Assembly (NCBI GenBank): GCA_030041215.1
Contig: JASHOH010000027.1
Location: 1 to 35,487, forward strand
Length of the DNA stretch: 35,487 nucleotides
Reading direction: 5' to 3'
From: Candidatus Sulfotelmatobacter sp.
GTDB taxonomy: Bacteria; Acidobacteriota; Terriglobia; Terriglobales; Acidobacteriaceae
Shown: in pieces, positions 6,182 to 24,918 of the stretch
Layout of the letters: each line of letters begins with the position of its first letter
Position numbering within the stretch: the stretch's first letter is position 1
Made by a program: the position numbers and the translations under genes
Notes under the pieces: generated by a model
What the model was told of the DNA's origin: nothing
Seen by the model: only the letters and a program-made list of their open reading frames with translations
Database searches by the model: none

Positions 6182-6702
6182 GACGCCTCCTTCGCGGTCG
6201 CCGCGGTTAGGGTTCGCTGTAAGCGTGCGCGGGCGCGCGCCAGAGTGGACATAACAGTTCCAATGGGAATGCCAGCAATCTGGACGATCTCTTTGTAAGA
6301 GCACCCTTCCAATTCGCGGAGTACGAGCACCTCTCTCGCGCGCGCAGGAAGCGATTCGAGCGCCCGCATTAACCTTTGCCGCTCATCCGCCTGTCCCGCC
6401 AAAGCTTCCGGATTTATAGACGGCTGCTGATGCACTTCTTCATTGAACTCCGTCATTAATTCCGCCGGCCGATTCTTCTCGAGCCAGGTGTAGCACGTGT
6501 TGCGAACAATCTGCAGAAGCCAGGCACGCGCGTCCCCTCCGTGAAAACGATCAAAAAAACGATAAGCCCGCAGCATTGCCTCTTGTACAACGTCCTCCGA
6601 ATCGGCCCGGTTTCGCACTAACCAGCGCGCTAAATTCGCGGCGCTGTCCAGATGCGGCAACACGAGTTGCTCAAACCGAATTCTGTCTTGCGGCCCTAGC
6701 AC
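6178..6702 (-). CDS. ECF-family RNA polymerase sigma factor
   Basis: 174 residues. Region 2 is visible as NRADSEDVVQEAMLRAYRFF and DARAWLLQIVRNTCYTWL (core binding and -10 recognition). Region 4 is LESLPARAREVLVLRELEGC followed by SYKEIVQIAGIPIGTVMSTL with an RARARL tail (-35 recognition HTH). There is no region 1 or 3, as expected for an ECF. Overlap with the downstream anti-sigma gene shows they are co-translated. A promoter-like motif 23-53 bp upstream of its ATG matches one on the opposite strand, consistent with autoregulation plus control of the divergent genes. Confidence 0.95.
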   Translation of the reverse strand: MLGPQDRIRFEQLVLPHLDSAANLARWLVRNRADSEDVVQEAMLRAYRFFDRFHGGDARAWLLQIVRNTCYTWLEKNRPAELMTEFNEEVHQQPSINPEALAGQADERQRLMRALESLPARAREVLVLRELEGCSYKEIVQIAGIPIGTVMSTLARARARLQRTLTAATAKEAS

Positions 6703-6724
6703 GTCCCTGTTCCTCGGCCTCTAT

Positions 6725-6755
6725 GTAATAACCGTTCCCGCTGGGATTTTATTCC
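6725..6755 (-). promoter_or_regulatory. Predicted ECF-dependent promoter of the sigma/anti-sigma operon
   Basis: On the minus strand the sequence reads GGAATAAAA, 13 bases, GGTTATTAC. Element order, spacing and sequence match the plus-strand copy at 6790-6820. The likely -35 element is GGAATAAAA and the -10 element GGTTATTAC. It lies 22 bp before the sigma factor ATG at 6702. Confidence 0.6.
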
Positions 6756-15800: not shown

Positions 15801-17380
15801 CCTTCAGACAGCATTTCGAGAATCGCCTCGTAAGTTTCGCGCTTGAGATCGCGATAGGGATACGCCCGACGTACCAGCGCAAACATCCCGTCTTCATCCC
15901 ATTCTTCTGCAGCGCACGCCGCCACAATTTGCTGCGCCAGCACATCCAGCGGCGCCTCGGGAATCATCAGCCGGTCCAGATCCCCTTGCTTAATCGCCCT
16001 CACCAGAGCCGCGCATTCCAGCAAATCGTCGCGCGTGGTCGCAAAAAATCTTCCCTTCGGAACCGCTCCGCGCCAGTGCCCCGAACGCCCCACACGTTGC
16101 AACGCCACTGCAATCGCTCGTGGCGAATTGATCTGCACGACGAGATCAACTGTGCCCACATCGATTCCAAGTTCGAGCGACGCGGTCGCCACCAGCACGC
16201 GCACCTGGCCTTCTTTCAGCTTCTTTTCTGCCGCCAGCCGCAGCTTACGGGAAAGGCTCCCGTGGTGCGCCGCGACATTTTCTTCTCCCATGCGCTCGCC
16301 CAACTGATGCGCCACACGCTCGGCCATGCGCCGCGTATTCACAAAGACCAGCGTCGACCGATGCTGCCCCACCAGAGTCACCAGCCGGTCATACACCTCA
16401 TCCCACATTTCGTTGGAAGCCACTGGGCCCAGCGGCATGGAAGGAACTTCTACGCCTAAATCGAGCCTGCGCTTGTGACCAATGTTGACGATGACCGGGT
16501 CATCAGAAACAGCAAAACGCGCCCGCGCCGCTCTGTCAGCAATTTGATCAGGTTCGCTTTGAAGGGGCGCGGCTTCCAGCCGCGCCGTAGAAGAACCCCC
16601 ATTTGAATCGACTTCAAAATTCCTTGAAAGGCTCGCTTTTGGGTGGCGCAGCGCTTCTAGCGCTGCGATTCCAGATTCGCGTTCCGTAGCGGCTTTAGCC
16701 GCTGAGGTGCCGCTCCCCGTCAAAAAATGCGCTACCTCCTCAATCGGCTTCTGCGTCGCCGAAAGCCCAATGCGCACCGGCTTTTTGTGTGTCAGTGCAT
16801 CCAGCCGTTCCAGGGACAAGGTCAAATGCGCCCCGCGCTTGTCGTCGGCGACGGCATGGATCTCATCGACAATCACCGTCTCCACATCCCGCAAAATCGC
16901 GCGGCTCTTATCGGCAGTCAGCAAAATGTAGAGCGACTCCGGCGTCGTCACCAGAATATGCGGAGGCCGTTTCAGCATCGCTCGCCGCTCGTGCATCAGC
17001 GTGTCACCCGTGCGCACAGCGGTGCGGATCTCCGGCATAAGCAGCCCGCGCTCGCCCGCCATGCCGAGAATCGCGCCGAGAGGAATCTCCAAATTTTTCT
17101 GGATGTCGTTGCCCAGCGCCTTCAACGGCGAAACATATAAAACCTCAGTCCGATTCGCCAACTCTCCCGTCAGAGCCTTGCGCACCAGCCGATCGATGCA
17201 CGCCAAGAATGCAGCCAGCGTCTTGCCCGACCCGGTGGGTGCGGAAATTAGCGTTGTGCGCCCCGCGAGGATATGCGGCCAGCCCTGTTCCTGTGGCTCA
17301 GTTGGTGTGCCGAAGCGCTGCACAAACCACTCGGCTACGAGGGGATGGGCCCAGGAGAGAGAAGAAGGAAGGGAATGCAT
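12809..17380 (-). CDS. lhr: Lhr-type superfamily 2 DNA helicase carrying repeat-derived insertions
   Basis: 1523 residues, the size of full-length bacterial Lhr. Walker A SAPTGSGKT (47-55), motif Ia LYVSPLKAL, DEIH box (172-175), motif III LSATQKP, then RecA2 with LVFVNTRRMAERVA, LVATASLELGIDVG and QRVGRSGHW. The winged-helix/beta-barrel and large C-terminal Lhr domains follow. It unwinds DNA or RNA:DNA with 3'-5' polarity; a repair role is known for the family. Residues about 224-292 are an insertion, relative to what I expect for the family, made of palindromic repeats (16507-16711). A second repeat near residue 988 (EQHSAFSNEHSA) matches an intergenic repeat at 10201. Both are in frame, and motifs on both sides are intact. 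Confidence 0.95.
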   Translation of the reverse strand: MHSLPSSLSWAHPLVAEWFVQRFGTPTEPQEQGWPHILAGRTTLISAPTGSGKTLAAFLACIDRLVRKALTGELANRTEVLYVSPLKALGNDIQKNLEIPLGAILGMAGERGLLMPEIRTAVRTGDTLMHERRAMLKRPPHILVTTPESLYILLTADKSRAILRDVETVIVDEIHAVADDKRGAHLTLSLERLDALTHKKPVRIGLSATQKPIEEVAHFLTGSGTSAAKAATERESGIAALEALRHPKASLSRNFEVDSNGGSSTARLEAAPLQSEPDQIADRAARARFAVSDDPVIVNIGHKRRLDLGVEVPSMPLGPVASNEMWDEVYDRLVTLVGQHRSTLVFVNTRRMAERVAHQLGERMGEENVAAHHGSLSRKLRLAAEKKLKEGQVRVLVATASLELGIDVGTVDLVVQINSPRAIAVALQRVGRSGHWRGAVPKGRFFATTRDDLLECAALVRAIKQGDLDRLMIPEAPLDVLAQQIVAACAAEEWDEDGMFALVRRAYPYRDLKRETYEAILEMLSEGIAARRGRYGAYLHRDRVNRKLRARRGARIAAITSGGAIPDNSLYAVVVEPDGIVVGTVDEDFAVESNRGDIMLLGNTSWMIRRVETNAGRMLVQDAHGAPPSVPFWRGEAPARTEELSQHIGTLRKKISEMLPHTSPVGFSATQPDVAAAVSWLKEECGLEDSGAEQAIQYVLEGRAVLGAVPTQDTVIAERFFDEGGGMQLVIHAPFGGRINKAWGLALRKRFCRGFNFELQAAATDNGLNIALAEQHSFPLGDVFNFLQAATVQPILEQAALDSPIFGTRWRWDANRALALLRFQGGKKVPPQIQRMRSEDLLASVFPDAAACFENIEGDRKIPDHPLVAEVMKDVLTEAMDVEGLKSALRGIADGTIRCLAVDTPVPSQFSHEILNANPYAYLDDAPLEERRARAVQMRRTLPESVLEEVGGLDPAAIEQVRAEAWPDVRDADELHDALHTLVALPEQHSAFSNEHSADRELWQNYFGALVNQGRAAIASTGERRYWVSAERANTFSNLFPEARFQPPLTAIEAATPSRDDALLTLVTGWMSHVGPTTAGELSATLGIPASEIFNALLRMEASGTILRGKFTGVSRAEPAPTKAEIGTEVSTSDQDIEWCERRLLARIHRLTVATLRKQIEPVTAAQFMQWLLRWQHLAPGMQVTGERGTLEVLRQLQGFEIPANAWERQVLARRVSDYDPKYLDQLCLTGAVGWGRLSPHPATLEYSSAGDSGNDSARRQRRVIPTSVAPITFFVREDADWMTPRQPEVAENTGLSHGARNVLDFLRQRGASFFADIVRGTGKLKAEIETALWELVAAGLVTADGFDNLRSLIDPKRRAGQGSGRTMRPRHTAGRWALLHNDDVVERPRMVEAACWMLLRRYGIVIRDVLAREANLPPWRELLMAFRRLEDRGEIRGGRFVDGFLGEQFALPVAVESIRAMRKMEPGQETIALSAADPLNLVGILVRGERVPAISGNTVTLRDGVAIAVPATPAISDQAAAG
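14389..14419 (-). repeat. GCACTCGGCATT-family repeat inside lhr
   Basis: Minus strand begins cagcactcggcattcagc and matches 10201-10231 at about 25 of 31 positions. In lhr it encodes EQHSAFSNEHSA, where Lhr proteins usually have a short linker before the DUF-like C-terminal region. Confidence 0.65.
16566..16586. repeat. Palindrome inside lhr (9-3-9)
   Basis: ggcgcggct, 3 bases, agccgcgcc: perfect 9-bp arms. It lies at the far end of the insertion in the lhr frame and is followed by gtagaagaac. Confidence 0.8.
16637..16709 (-). repeat. 73-nt two-hairpin element inside lhr
   Basis: Contains two perfect palindromes: cgcagcgct-tct-agcgctgcg (16647-16667) and agcggct-tt-agccgct (16688-16703). 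The reverse complement shares both ends and both hairpins with the intergenic copy at 18957-19029, each about 73 nt; the central 20 nt differ. Translated in frame as part of the Lhr insertion. Confidence 0.85.
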
Positions 17381-17481: not shown

Positions 17482-18039
17482 ATGCCCCAACTCTCCCCCC
17501 AAGCCCGCGCTCGCCGCATCAAACTAATTCTCTTCGACGTCGACGGCGTCCTCACCGACGGCAAACTTTATTTTCTTCCCACGCCGGGCGTTCAGGAAGA
17601 TGCTGGCAAAACCGAATTCAAGGGCTTTCACGCTCACGACGGCATCGCCATTTCCCTCGCGCGCATCGGAGGGCTCAAGACTGGTCTCATCACCAAGCGC
17701 GTCTCCGACAACGTTGCCCTGCGCGCTCGCGACCTGAAACTCGATTTCGTCCATCAGGGCGTGAGTCACAAGCAGGCCTGCTTCCTCGAAATCGTCGCCA
17801 CAGCCGGGCTGAAGCCAGAACAAGCCGCCTTCGTCGGAGACGACATTGTTGATCTACCGCCCATGCGCGCCGCAGGCCTGGCCATCGCCGTCAAGAACGC
17901 CCGCCCCGAAGTGAAGCGGAAAGCCCACTACGTCACTCCGCATTCTGGCGGTGAGGGCGCGCTGCGCGATGCCGTCGAATTCATCCTGAAAGCGCAAAGG
18001 AAATGGGAGCAGGTCCTGCAGGAATATGTGGGTGGGTGA
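17482..18039 (+). CDS. kdsC: 3-deoxy-D-manno-octulosonate 8-phosphate phosphatase (KdsC), HAD family
   Basis: 185 residues from the ATG at 17482; longer frames upstream are antisense to lhr. The HAD motifs are LILFDVDGVLTDG (nucleophile Asp and acid Asp), TGLITKRVS (motif II, Thr), K-x-A motif III region and FVGDDIVDLPPM (motif IV Asp pair). Also typical of KdsC are FHAHDGIAISLA and the C-terminal SGGEGALRDAVEFIL. It removes the phosphate from Kdo-8-phosphate in lipopolysaccharide inner-core synthesis. KdsD, an earlier step of the same pathway, lies 5.8 kb downstream. GNATTHE-like substitutions are absent; all catalytic residues are seen. Confidence 0.92.
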   Translation: MPQLSPQARARRIKLILFDVDGVLTDGKLYFLPTPGVQEDAGKTEFKGFHAHDGIAISLARIGGLKTGLITKRVSDNVALRARDLKLDFVHQGVSHKQACFLEIVATAGLKPEQAAFVGDDIVDLPPMRAAGLAIAVKNARPEVKRKAHYVTPHSGGEGALRDAVEFILKAQRKWEQVLQEYVGG

Positions 18040-18122
18040 GATCGCGGAGCGAAGTCGGTTCAGCCCCCGCGTTGACTCCATCGAAAACCGCTCACTATAC
18101 TTTTTCTAGCGAAGGAGAGCCC

Positions 18123-18902
18123 TTGCCCCTATCCGCGGTAATCGTGGACGATGAGCAGCTCGCGCGCGACGAGCTTGCCTATCTGCTCAAAAACGCCGAG
18201 GACGTCAATGTCGTTGCGCAGGGCAAAAATGGCCTGGAAGCAGTTAACCTGATCAAAGAGCACAATCCGGACCTGGTTTTTCTCGATGTTCAAATGCCGG
18301 GGCTCGACGGATTTGGCGTCATCAAGAAGCTTCTCGACAAAAAAATTCCATTGCCCAAAGTGGTTTTCGCCACGGCGTTCGATCAATATGCAGTAAAGGC
18401 GTTCGAGGTCAATGCAGTTGACTACCTGCTGAAACCATTTGATAAGAAACGCGTTGCGCAGTCTCTTGTTAAGGCCCGCACTCAGCAGGAATCGGAAAAC
18501 CTGCCCGCAGAAAAAATCGATGCTCTTGTCCGCATGATGCAGGCGCCCAAGGCGCAAACTTCAAAGATTTTGCTGAAAGCCGCGGGGCGAATGTTCCTGG
18601 TGGACCAGAAAGACATCTGCTATGCCTGGATCGAAGATGGCGTGATCAGCGTAGTGACGGCCGGTCCTGCCGGCATGGAAGGACACTCGAACTGCCGCAC
18701 TCTGGAAGAATTGCTGGACAGCCTTGACCCCAATTTGTTCTGGCGGGCCCATCGTTCGTACCTGGTGAACATCAACCATATTCGCGAAGTGGTGCCGTGG
18801 TTCAAAAGCTCTTATCAACTGCGGCTAGATGACAAAAAGCAGAGCGAAATTCCTGTGAGCCGGGCACAAACCAAACGTTTGCGGGAGTTGTTTCGGCTGT
18901 AG
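18123..18902 (+). CDS. LytTR-family response regulator
   Basis: 259 residues from a TTG at 18123, chosen because gaaggag lies 6-7 bases upstream. Receiver domain: VIVDDEQLARDEL acidic pair, phospho-acceptor Asp in DLVFLDVQMPG, switch Thr in VFATAF and Lys in YLLKPFDK. A linker (about 120-150) leads to a LytTR DNA-binding domain with FWRAHRSYLVNINHI and IPVSRAQTKRLRELF. LytTR regulators bind direct repeats through a beta-strand domain. No LytS-type or other histidine kinase is present in the window, so its sensor is elsewhere. 83 bp after kdsC on the same strand. Confidence 0.93.
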   Translation: MPLSAVIVDDEQLARDELAYLLKNAEDVNVVAQGKNGLEAVNLIKEHNPDLVFLDVQMPGLDGFGVIKKLLDKKIPLPKVVFATAFDQYAVKAFEVNAVDYLLKPFDKKRVAQSLVKARTQQESENLPAEKIDALVRMMQAPKAQTSKILLKAAGRMFLVDQKDICYAWIEDGVISVVTAGPAGMEGHSNCRTLEELLDSLDPNLFWRAHRSYLVNINHIREVVPWFKSSYQLRLDDKKQSEIPVSRAQTKRLRELFRL

Positions 18903-18956
18903 CGGAGATTGTCGTTCTTCCGCGATTTCGGGCCTTGAGCAGGCGGCGGGAAGACG

Positions 18957-19029
18957 CACCTCAGGGGCTAAAGCCGGACTGAAAACAGGGGACTTATCGC
19001 AGCGCTGGAAAGCGCTGCGCCACCCAAAA
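18957..19029 (+). repeat. 73-nt two-hairpin element, intergenic copy
   Basis: Begins cacctcag and ends cgccacccaaaa, with a ggctaaagcc half-palindrome and the palindrome cgcagcgct-gga-aagcgctgcg (18998-19019). Conserved ends and hairpins match the lhr copy at 16637-16709 in opposite orientation. Lies between the LytTR and GGDEF genes. No gene is visible in 18903-19270. Confidence 0.85.
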
Positions 19030-19270
19030 ATCTGCGCCAACCACAATCTGCGTGAGAAAATCTGCGCCCACGCCAAATTGATGTTTTTTCGCAGCTTTTG
19101 AAGCCGCTTTTACGATCGGTAATTCCTATAGGCAATGCTATTCCCAACTCCGCATTGGCTTTACGGGTTCCGGTTACCAAGGTTCATTGCTCCAAGGTTG
19201 AGGCACCCATATAATTTTTTCTAACCGTCGCTCCGCCCAGCAGAGATCAGAGGAATTGAGACCAAGAAAT

Positions 19271-20323
19271 ATGTCCGAGGCCACCGGCACGCAGCTAACC
19301 CGCCAGAGCCAGGAGCTCACCATTTTTCACGATGTGGCCAAGGCCTTGACCTCGTCACTCGATCTGGATTCCATTCTGCAGACCATCATGGAGAAAATGG
19401 CGGAATACTTCCGCCCCGATACGTGGTCGCTGCTGATGGTGGATGAGGAGCATGATGAGCTTTATTTCGCCATCGCCGTTGGTGAAGCTGCCGAGGCGCT
19501 GAAGAATGTTCGCTTGAAACTTGGCGAAGGAATCGCTGGGTGGGTGGCCCGCCATGGTGAGCAGGTGATTTCAGGCGATGTGGCCAACGATCCGCGCTTC
19601 GCCAAACGCATCGACGAAGCCACACAGTGGCAGACGCACTCGATCATCTGCATCCCTTTGCGTTCGCGATTGCGCGTGCTGGGGGTGATCCAACTGGTCA
19701 ACGTGGATCTTACGCAATTCAATGAGCCCGAACTTTTCTTTCTGCAGGCACTTTGCGACTATGCCGCCATCGCTATTGAAAACGCCCGCTGGGTGGAGAA
19801 GATACAGGAACTGACGATCACCGATGACTGCACCGGACTCTACAACGCGCGGCACTTGTATAAAACTCTTGAAACCGAGGTTTACCGCTCAGCGCGCTTC
19901 GGCTACGAGTTCAGCGTGCTGTTCATTGATCTCGATCATTTCAAATCTGTGAACGATACTTATGGCCACCTGATCGGCAGCAAGCTGCTGGCCGAAATCG
20001 GTTACCTCATCAAAGCACAACTCCGATTAATCGACTTTGCCTTTCGTTACGGAGGCGACGAATTTGTGGTTTTGTTGCCGCAGACCGGAAAAGATCAAGC
20101 GCTTGTCGTGGCCAAGCGGCTCCGCGACGGGCTGCGAGGAACTCATTTTTGCCGCAATGAGGGTTTGAATTTAAACGTAAGAGCTTCGATTGGCCTTGCG
20201 ACCTATCCTCACGATGCACGTGACGCGCATGATGTCATCCGCCAGGCTGATGAGATGATGTATCTGGTGAAGAACACTACCCGGGACAACATCGGCATTG
20301 CACAGCGGGGAGTCATGAAGTGA
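19271..20323 (+). CDS. GAF-GGDEF diguanylate cyclase
   Basis: 350 residues from the ATG at 19271; a TTG five codons earlier is possible. GAF sensor domain at about 20-175 (SLDLDSILQTIM, VARHGEQVISGDVANDPRF, IICIPLRSR). GGDEF domain at 185-350 with LTDDCTGLYNARH-like entry, FIDLDHFKSVNDTYGH (metal-binding Asp) and catalytic YGGDEF (261-265). An inhibitory I-site R-L-I-D at 252-255 stands exactly five residues before GGDEF, so product inhibition is expected. It makes cyclic di-GMP in the cytoplasm; no membrane segment is seen. The signal sensed by the GAF domain is unknown. Confidence 0.94.
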   Translation: MSEATGTQLTRQSQELTIFHDVAKALTSSLDLDSILQTIMEKMAEYFRPDTWSLLMVDEEHDELYFAIAVGEAAEALKNVRLKLGEGIAGWVARHGEQVISGDVANDPRFAKRIDEATQWQTHSIICIPLRSRLRVLGVIQLVNVDLTQFNEPELFFLQALCDYAAIAIENARWVEKIQELTITDDCTGLYNARHLYKTLETEVYRSARFGYEFSVLFIDLDHFKSVNDTYGHLIGSKLLAEIGYLIKAQLRLIDFAFRYGGDEFVVLLPQTGKDQALVVAKRLRDGLRGTHFCRNEGLNLNVRASIGLATYPHDARDAHDVIRQADEMMYLVKNTTRDNIGIAQRGVMK

Positions 20324-24853: not shown

Positions 24854-24918
24854 TAGCGCCGCCATCCCGGCGGCTGGCGTGGCGGCGTCTCGCCGCCACG
24901 GCAATGTCCGCGGCGCTA
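24854..24918. repeat. Nested cruciform-type palindromic element
   Basis: Outer arms tagcgccgc (24854-24862) and gcggcgcta (24910-24918) pair perfectly. Inside are cgtggcggcg-tct-cgccgccacg (24878-24900, perfect 10-3-10) and a second C/G hairpin (24859-24874). Sits between kdsD and the small gene at 24930. Confidence 0.8.

Follow-up and report, generated by a model that had tools for sequence, protein, structure and literature searches.

Palindromic repeats in frame in an interdomain linker of an Lhr-type helicase from Candidatus Sulfotelmatobacter: a probable RAYT-type REP cluster in a recurrently occupied loop

The lhr gene of Candidatus Sulfotelmatobacter sp. (assembly GCA_030041215.1, contig JASHOH010000027.1; the whole stretch of 35,487 nucleotides analysed here is referred to as the window) contains an extra in-frame segment that, with a probability of about 85%, represents a cluster of REPs of the RAYT (REP-associated tyrosine transposase) type that entered the linker joining RecA1 to RecA2, translated into probably disordered residues, moved by a RAYT, and exemplifying loops that are refilled throughout the genus. 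This kind of element has already been described; what appears to be new, going by the open-access papers searched, is the Acidobacteriota setting and a recurrence that is broader than in the described cases. The features involved are collected in Table 1.

Table 1. Coordinates of the features discussed (positions in the window, unless preceded by a locus label)
Feature	Coordinates	Strand	Basis or remark
lhr, large helicase-related protein, 1523 aa	12809..17380	-	ORF and Pfam domains
Extra coding segment of Lhr, residues 224-292, between RecA1 and RecA2	16507..16711	-	
REP unit A, 33 nt	16556..16588	+	Palindrome 16566-16586; stem pattern, 25 genome places with no more than 2 mismatches
REP unit By	16636..16671	+	Palindrome 16647-16667; GTGG precedes the stem
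REP unit Bz	16688..16709	+	Palindrome 16688-16703; By and Bz form a 74-nt pair, 16636-16709
Second By-Bz pair of the window	18956..19029	-	Between ORFs 18003-18902 and 19256-20323
TilS of the same genome, PP-loop domain split by a repeat cluster	L207:151-1953		
Candidate REPtron	L064:1024-1942		RAYT domain, By and Bz array on one side, one pair on the other

The Lhr protein and its extra segment

The Pfam domains DEAD, Helicase_C, WH_Lhr, DEAD_assoc, WH3_Lhr and WH4_Lhr identify the gene product as an Lhr-type helicase. The extra segment is flanked by the DEAD (residues 27-214) and Helicase_C (residues 332-435) domains. A comparison with the structures of M. smegmatis Lhr (7lhl and 5v9x) reveals about 69 surplus residues (in the 7lhl alignment, query residue 225 corresponds to position 224 of the chain and query residue 304 to position 234), in agreement with the first-pass annotation of this DNA, made from the letters alone, which had placed an insertion at residues 224-292, approximately. 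The same annotation described three perfect palindromes, of the forms 9-3-9, 9-3-9 and 7-2-7 in the order of Table 1, across which the reading frame stays open. Both observations hold: the segment contains three palindromes with arms of at least 7, compared with an average of 0.165 and never more than 2 when its dinucleotides are shuffled 200 times, and the ORF is uninterrupted through all three of them. The description of the segment as three palindromes plus linker is accurate with respect to the palindromes and can be refined with respect to the remainder, given that about half of its 205 nt belongs to the recognised units (33 and 74 nt).

An AlphaFold2 model of Lhr residues 1-520, built with 39 relatives, has a mean pLDDT of 84 and a pTM of 0.79. 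The blocks spanning residues 221-290 have pLDDT values of 58, 61, 55, 31, 31, 43 and 46, compared with 80-98 for most of the other blocks. Because the confidence of the predicted model is low in this region, the insert is probably a linker that is disordered and leaves the RecA domains on either side intact, most likely a tolerated one, and its presence may be neutral.

Repeat units in the genome and in the genus

The genome (5.03 Mb in 251 contigs) contains at least 44 places that match the insert and fall into two groups, unit A and the By-Bz pair (40 of the 109 candidates scored). With no more than 2 mismatches allowed, the stem of unit A is detected at the number of places given in Table 1 versus 1 for the reversed control, and the 16-mer of By at 28 forward and 28 reverse places versus 2 and 7 for the controls. 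A search with positions 16470-16640 of the window yields matches elsewhere in the genome that are essentially confined to unit A, with 2 of the 33 matches listed extending 7-13 bases beyond it. The suggestion that a 73-nt unit of the insert is dispersed in the genome is borne out by other copies with up to 83% identity over 75 nt, one of which is the second pair of the window.

The exact By 16-mer is present in 32 of the 37 genomes of the genus, including the one studied here, and in none of the 24 genomes from outside the genus, with a single match overall for the reversed control. A third palindrome, GGACAGCCG-N4-CGGCTGTCC, which relatives carry within inserts of Lhr and AlaS, is found in 36 of the 37 and in none of the 24 genomes, respectively (control 0). 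Units A and By and the third palindrome are all short palindromes present in many dispersed copies. Examination of 73 copies in their genomic context (45 of the 81 places listed for A and By, and 28 of the 29 places of the third palindrome) shows that 12 are located within genes with domain support (7 of 45 and 5 of 28, respectively), so that the copies are mostly intergenic; coding sequence accounts for about 86% of two sampled contigs, according to a simple gene prediction based on length and codon bias. By has GTGG or GTAG, a possible foot of the GTAG type, ahead of the stem, with GTGG being the more common of the two in a pattern-based count that favours GTGG by design, whereas A, Bz and the third palindrome are footless. 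In the window, a perfect 10-3-10 palindrome at 24878-24900, within a short predicted ORF, is not matched by any of the repeat units scanned.

Occupancy of Lhr loops in the orthologues

Site 224 of Lhr, delimited by HFLTG and VIV, contains 6-11 residues in 16 of the 22 sequences from the genus that cover it and 25-73 residues in the other 6; five sequences from outside the genus have 2-12 residues. Thus, as had been anticipated, the insertion is missing from most orthologues, and neither of the two patterns that the first-pass annotation had named as contrary to its reading, i.e., the same residues shared by orthologues across the phylum or a lack of other copies of the unit, is found.

The larger Lhr set includes 110 loci (30 and 80, with some genomes sampled twice), 93 of which have full-length ORFs; after removal of 14 duplicates, 79 sequences remain, with one near-duplicate pair (L058 and L146) retained. 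Inserts are defined as extra segments of at least 8 aa, and palindromes by arms of at least 8 and a loop of no more than 5. Under these definitions, the inserts contain 58 palindromes in 10,950 nt compared with 58 in 333,015 nt of the conserved core, and in a shuffling analysis, 59 are observed, whereas the shuffled segments average 1.9 and never exceed 7 (100 shuffles of 180 of the 181 segments, the one that contains N being dropped). Palindromic inserts are present in 27 of the 79 sequences (15 of 24 in the clade that includes Lhr of the window and 12 of 55 elsewhere). At site 224, inserts of at least 15 aa are found in 6 of the 79 sequences, and each of the five from other genomes holds a perfect palindrome, with arms of 9 in four cases and of 8 in one. 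Because the same loop has palindromic inserts in these five sequences, site 224 is a recurrently occupied site rather than a one-off case. Four species have a Bz-like unit at this site in a common frame and orientation, and By is read in differing frames in Lhr of different species.

On a tree constructed from the Lhr core columns by a quick method, the presence of these inserts at site 224 requires 5 changes, at least 4 of which are forced by starred (well-supported) branches. Given that shuffled tip labels require 5.8 changes on average, the tree shows scatter and not direction. Sixteen sequences have palindromes at site 1115/1118, with 14 changes on the tree; at either site, a change could represent a gain or a loss.

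These patterns bear on an alternative history, a single ancestral insertion in the genus that was subsequently lost in most species, with the palindromes kept alike through gene conversion with intergenic copies. The shared frame and orientation of the Bz-like units would be expected under such a history, as would the common frame of the By unit in loop 133 of TilS (see below), and the changes on the tree could be losses; conversely, the number of changes relative to the number of occupied sequences (5 over 6 at site 224 and 14 over 16 at site 1115/1118), together with the fact that the combinations of units in Lhr inserts differ between related species, argues against it. We consider a single ancestral insertion conceivable and somewhat doubtful, and infer repeated gain rather than repeated loss.

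Two further observations concern Lhr of individual genomes. Lhr of L084 and L078 has inserts at sites 200 and 994 that include peptides such as VIPSEARDLGF and CHSERSEE, which we take to resemble another dispersed coding repeat of acidobacterial proteins. In G001, Lhr matches are located on two contigs, C96 and C123, which may come from two organisms given the 9% contamination of this bin; a By 16-mer at C123:1926-1941 falls into an alignment gap of the second match.

Reading frames and assembly

The genomes compared are mostly metagenome assemblies, and 17 of the 110 Lhr loci lack a full-length ORF by the filter used. Ten of these are located at contig ends and five contain runs of N (L138, L145, L127, L075 and L034), so that the breaks which could have been taken for frame-breaking insertions are the runs of N themselves. 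L141 appeared truncated and is full-length, a segment having been lost by BLAST. In the remaining case, L113 (bases 6630-6751), lhr of a relative enters a Bz-like unit in which its frame meets a TAG, 13 bases short of the end of the contig; this could be an insertion that breaks the frame, or the contig may wrongly end in the repeat. Apart from L113, no frame-breaking insert is seen among the 110 loci.

In some mobile bypass elements, ribosomes skip a segment or the segment is removed, and a similar explanation could be considered for Lhr, given that the hairpins are perfect in RNA as well and that the stop codon of L113, though beside the contig end, lies in the repeat. An open frame is unnecessary, however, if the segment is not translated, and 93 of the 110 loci are full-length, with nearly all of the others accounted for as above. 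Bypass or removal of the segment therefore appears very unlikely. An artefact of the metagenome assembly is still harder to credit: repeats break assemblies, this one consists of 251 contigs, and in five relatives' Lhr loci the gene is interrupted by runs of N; as opposed to this, the insert is in the middle of a 35-kb contig, in a frame that is open through 1523 codons, and similar inserts are found in assemblies that bear other project names.

Other genes carrying in-frame repeats

In the same genome, ten genes contain a repeat in frame with domain support. For Lhr and TilS, the repeat is located in frame in a conserved gene and is absent from orthologues, the translation being predicted; the other eight genes are judged by domain position alone. 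The seven domain-supported copies of A and By are found in Lhr (twice), a Methyltransf_28 protein, an FAD/4Fe-4S dehydrogenase, TilS, a PMT_2 glycosyltransferase and MtaB, of which the glycosyltransferase is the weakest case, with the repeat following the domain. Eight more of the 45 A and By copies pass the codon-bias filter and are located near ORF ends, before a domain or in ORFs without a domain (four of them, L168, L177, L187 and L197, being outside the Pfam scan). Among the third-palindrome copies, 11 pass the filter; the five with domain support are in genes for a molybdopterin oxidoreductase, peptidyl-arginine deiminase, MnmG, LpxB and the same FAD/4Fe-4S dehydrogenase, with all three phases used, and one of the remaining six (L316) is outside the Pfam scan. 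Three of the ten hosts (TilS, MtaB and MnmG) are tRNA-modification enzymes, a number too small for enrichment.

The use of all three phases is relevant to the possibility that the insert is a selected, functional accessory module of Lhr, e.g., a regulatory or partner-binding loop. The host is a repair enzyme, and it has been speculated that REPs in repair genes alter function (according to the text available for PMC3733652). Against such a role, not only is the phase of the in-gene copies variable; the sequence, length and repeat family of the Lhr insert also differ between species, most relatives have no insert, and the confidence of the structural model is low over it. A selected module is accordingly unlikely, and a tolerated linker is the reading that we retain.

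Recurrent occupancy is found also in TilS and AlaS. The TilS set comprises 30 loci out of 42 genomes matched, with one partial sequence dropped (29 species), and the AlaS set 30 out of 45, with six dropped (24 species); AlaS was picked as a control gene, repeats in it not being known beforehand. In TilS, inserts contain 22 palindromes in 2,466 nt versus 2 in 44,790 nt of the core (shuffle mean 0.57), and in AlaS, 8 in 3,405 nt versus 11 in 64,854 nt (shuffle mean 0.31). A palindromic insert is present in 14 of the 29 TilS and 6 of the 24 AlaS sequences. The palindromic inserts of TilS are found at site 133 in 10 sequences and at site 161/164 in 9; at the former, the By unit is read in one common frame in several species, and the TilS palindromes of L217 and L228 are unlike the repeat families studied here. 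In AlaS, 6 of the 8 inserts at site 299 are palindromic, compared with none of the 14 at site 422 (L242-L271), where species-specific inserts of 16-114 residues are present in 14 of the 24 sequences. Most bacteria cannot do without TilS and AlaS, so that both presumably work despite the inserts.

Beyond these loops, there is no clear excess of palindromes in genes generally: 354 predicted genes from 434 kb of this genome contain 13 palindromes with arms of at least 9 versus 8.6 +/- 2.7 (maximum 15) in synonymous shuffles, and 42 with arms of at least 8 versus 32.8 +/- 4.6. In 21 pairs of orthologues from two relatives, taken from stretches chosen for synteny, none of the 14 insertions of at least 8 aa is palindromic, and this small sample does not support a pervasive gene-wide effect. 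Taken together, these two results indicate that repeats within genes are the exception and cluster in particular loops.

Association with a RAYT transposase

The genome contains six places that match PF01797. An ORF at one of these, L064, scores 101.5 bits with NF047646 (REP-associated tyrosine transposase; cut-off 80) and has the HFH motif. This 3.3-kb locus includes five By and three Bz units that flank the transposase domain on both sides, the upstream By-Bz pair being located inside the ORF as called and upstream of the domain; all five By copies have GTGG or GTAG ahead of the stem. At the other five places, By-Bz units on both sides are absent: at one, the locus includes a By unit on a single side, at another there is a weak match to the units (E 0.034), and at the remaining three there is nothing of the kind. 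Unit A yields only one weak match at the RAYT loci (E 0.036), which overlaps a Bz unit, and none of the places of the third palindrome in this genome is on the RAYT contig, C15. Thus, only By-Bz is tied to the RAYT, and not unit A or the third palindrome. Because By-Bz flanks a RAYT domain and the By core is confined to the genus among the genomes searched, these units appear to constitute a RAYT-type REP system, and the repeats are likely mobilised by the RAYT of this genome.

Comparison with known repeat systems

The closest described counterparts are the GTAG/CGTC-tagged REPs found within genes of several species (PMC3733652). According to the available text of that paper, many of these are in repair genes, more than half occur as dimers or groups, recB is hit at nearly the same position in two Xanthomonas, tRNA pseudouridine synthase genes are among the hosts, and intragenic REPs are argued to be possibly neutral in flexible linkers or loops. 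As here, these are short dispersed palindromes, mostly intergenic, some of which are translated within genes; DNA-repair hosts and linker or loop positions are also common to them and the Lhr case. Unlike the cases covered by the same text, the present ones include a single gene with repeats in several of its loops in many species, and the hosts comprise TilS, AlaS, MnmG, MtaB and LpxB. With the RAYT-associated REPs and REPtrons, the present system shares the By-Bz units that flank a domain passing NF047646 and the GTGG or GTAG tetranucleotide ahead of the By stem at the RAYT locus; it differs in that GTGG appears dominant, Bz, A and the third palindrome have no foot, and A and the third palindrome are not located beside a RAYT.

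The RPEs of Rickettsia resemble the present repeats in being palindromic and in frame in unrelated genes. By the description in the part of PMC10969869 available, RPEs are about 150 bp long and encode a conserved peptide; the units described here are 22-74 nt long and are read in several frames, and neither this length nor one conserved encoded peptide is found for them. The earlier classification of the insert as protein-coding palindromic elements, which had pointed to Rickettsia and Wolbachia, is thus correct as to insertion in frame, whereas the closest kind, going by the available text of PMC3733652, is the RAYT-associated REP/BIME rather than the longer RPE.

From the same phylum, the available text of PMC3733652 describes tyrosine transposases of Acidobacteria (TIRYT), which are related to the transposase reported here and have long inverted repeats at the flanks, as opposed to the short REP units that adjoin L064; that text names no Acidobacteria among its intragenic cases. 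REP-like repeats in Acidobacteriota are also tabulated by RepRanger, with three genomes of this phylum and none of this genus in the part of PMC12306157 available; the terms 'intragenic', 'in-frame' and 'RAYT' are absent from its main text. Within the open-access papers, supplementary files aside, no description of translated REPs in Acidobacteriota was found, in line with what the first-pass annotation had stated for the phylum.

Proposed scenario and implications

These observations are best compatible with a scenario in which one unit A and one By-Bz pair, the latter a 74-nt BIME-like unit, entered the linker between RecA1 and RecA2 of Lhr. The insertion would have kept the frame and met no stop, so that about 69 extra, probably disordered residues would be translated, while the fold of Lhr, and presumably also its activity, would be retained. 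Movement or copying of the repeats is most likely the work of the RAYT, a single-strand transposase of the HUH type whose gene adjoins By-Bz units. Most insertions into genes would be lost, the survivors being in frame and in loops or interdomain linkers, and because survivors must satisfy these constraints, the same loops of Lhr, TilS and AlaS would be filled repeatedly across the genus.

A more general proposition, which we put forward tentatively and regard as possible rather than probable, is that in this genus a RAYT/REP system is a continuing source of protein loops, such that a few permissive loops of housekeeping enzymes, TilS and AlaS (both probably essential) among them, would be repeatedly filled, emptied and refilled, and much of the length variation of these enzymes would come from mobile hairpins. 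New protein segments could arise from selfish hairpins that have turned coding, and the described cases of coding hairpins come from Rickettsia and scattered other genomes. In a genus with dozens of sequenced species, in which the same loops are occupied in some and empty in others, the rate of insertion, the permissiveness of loops and gain of function would become testable.
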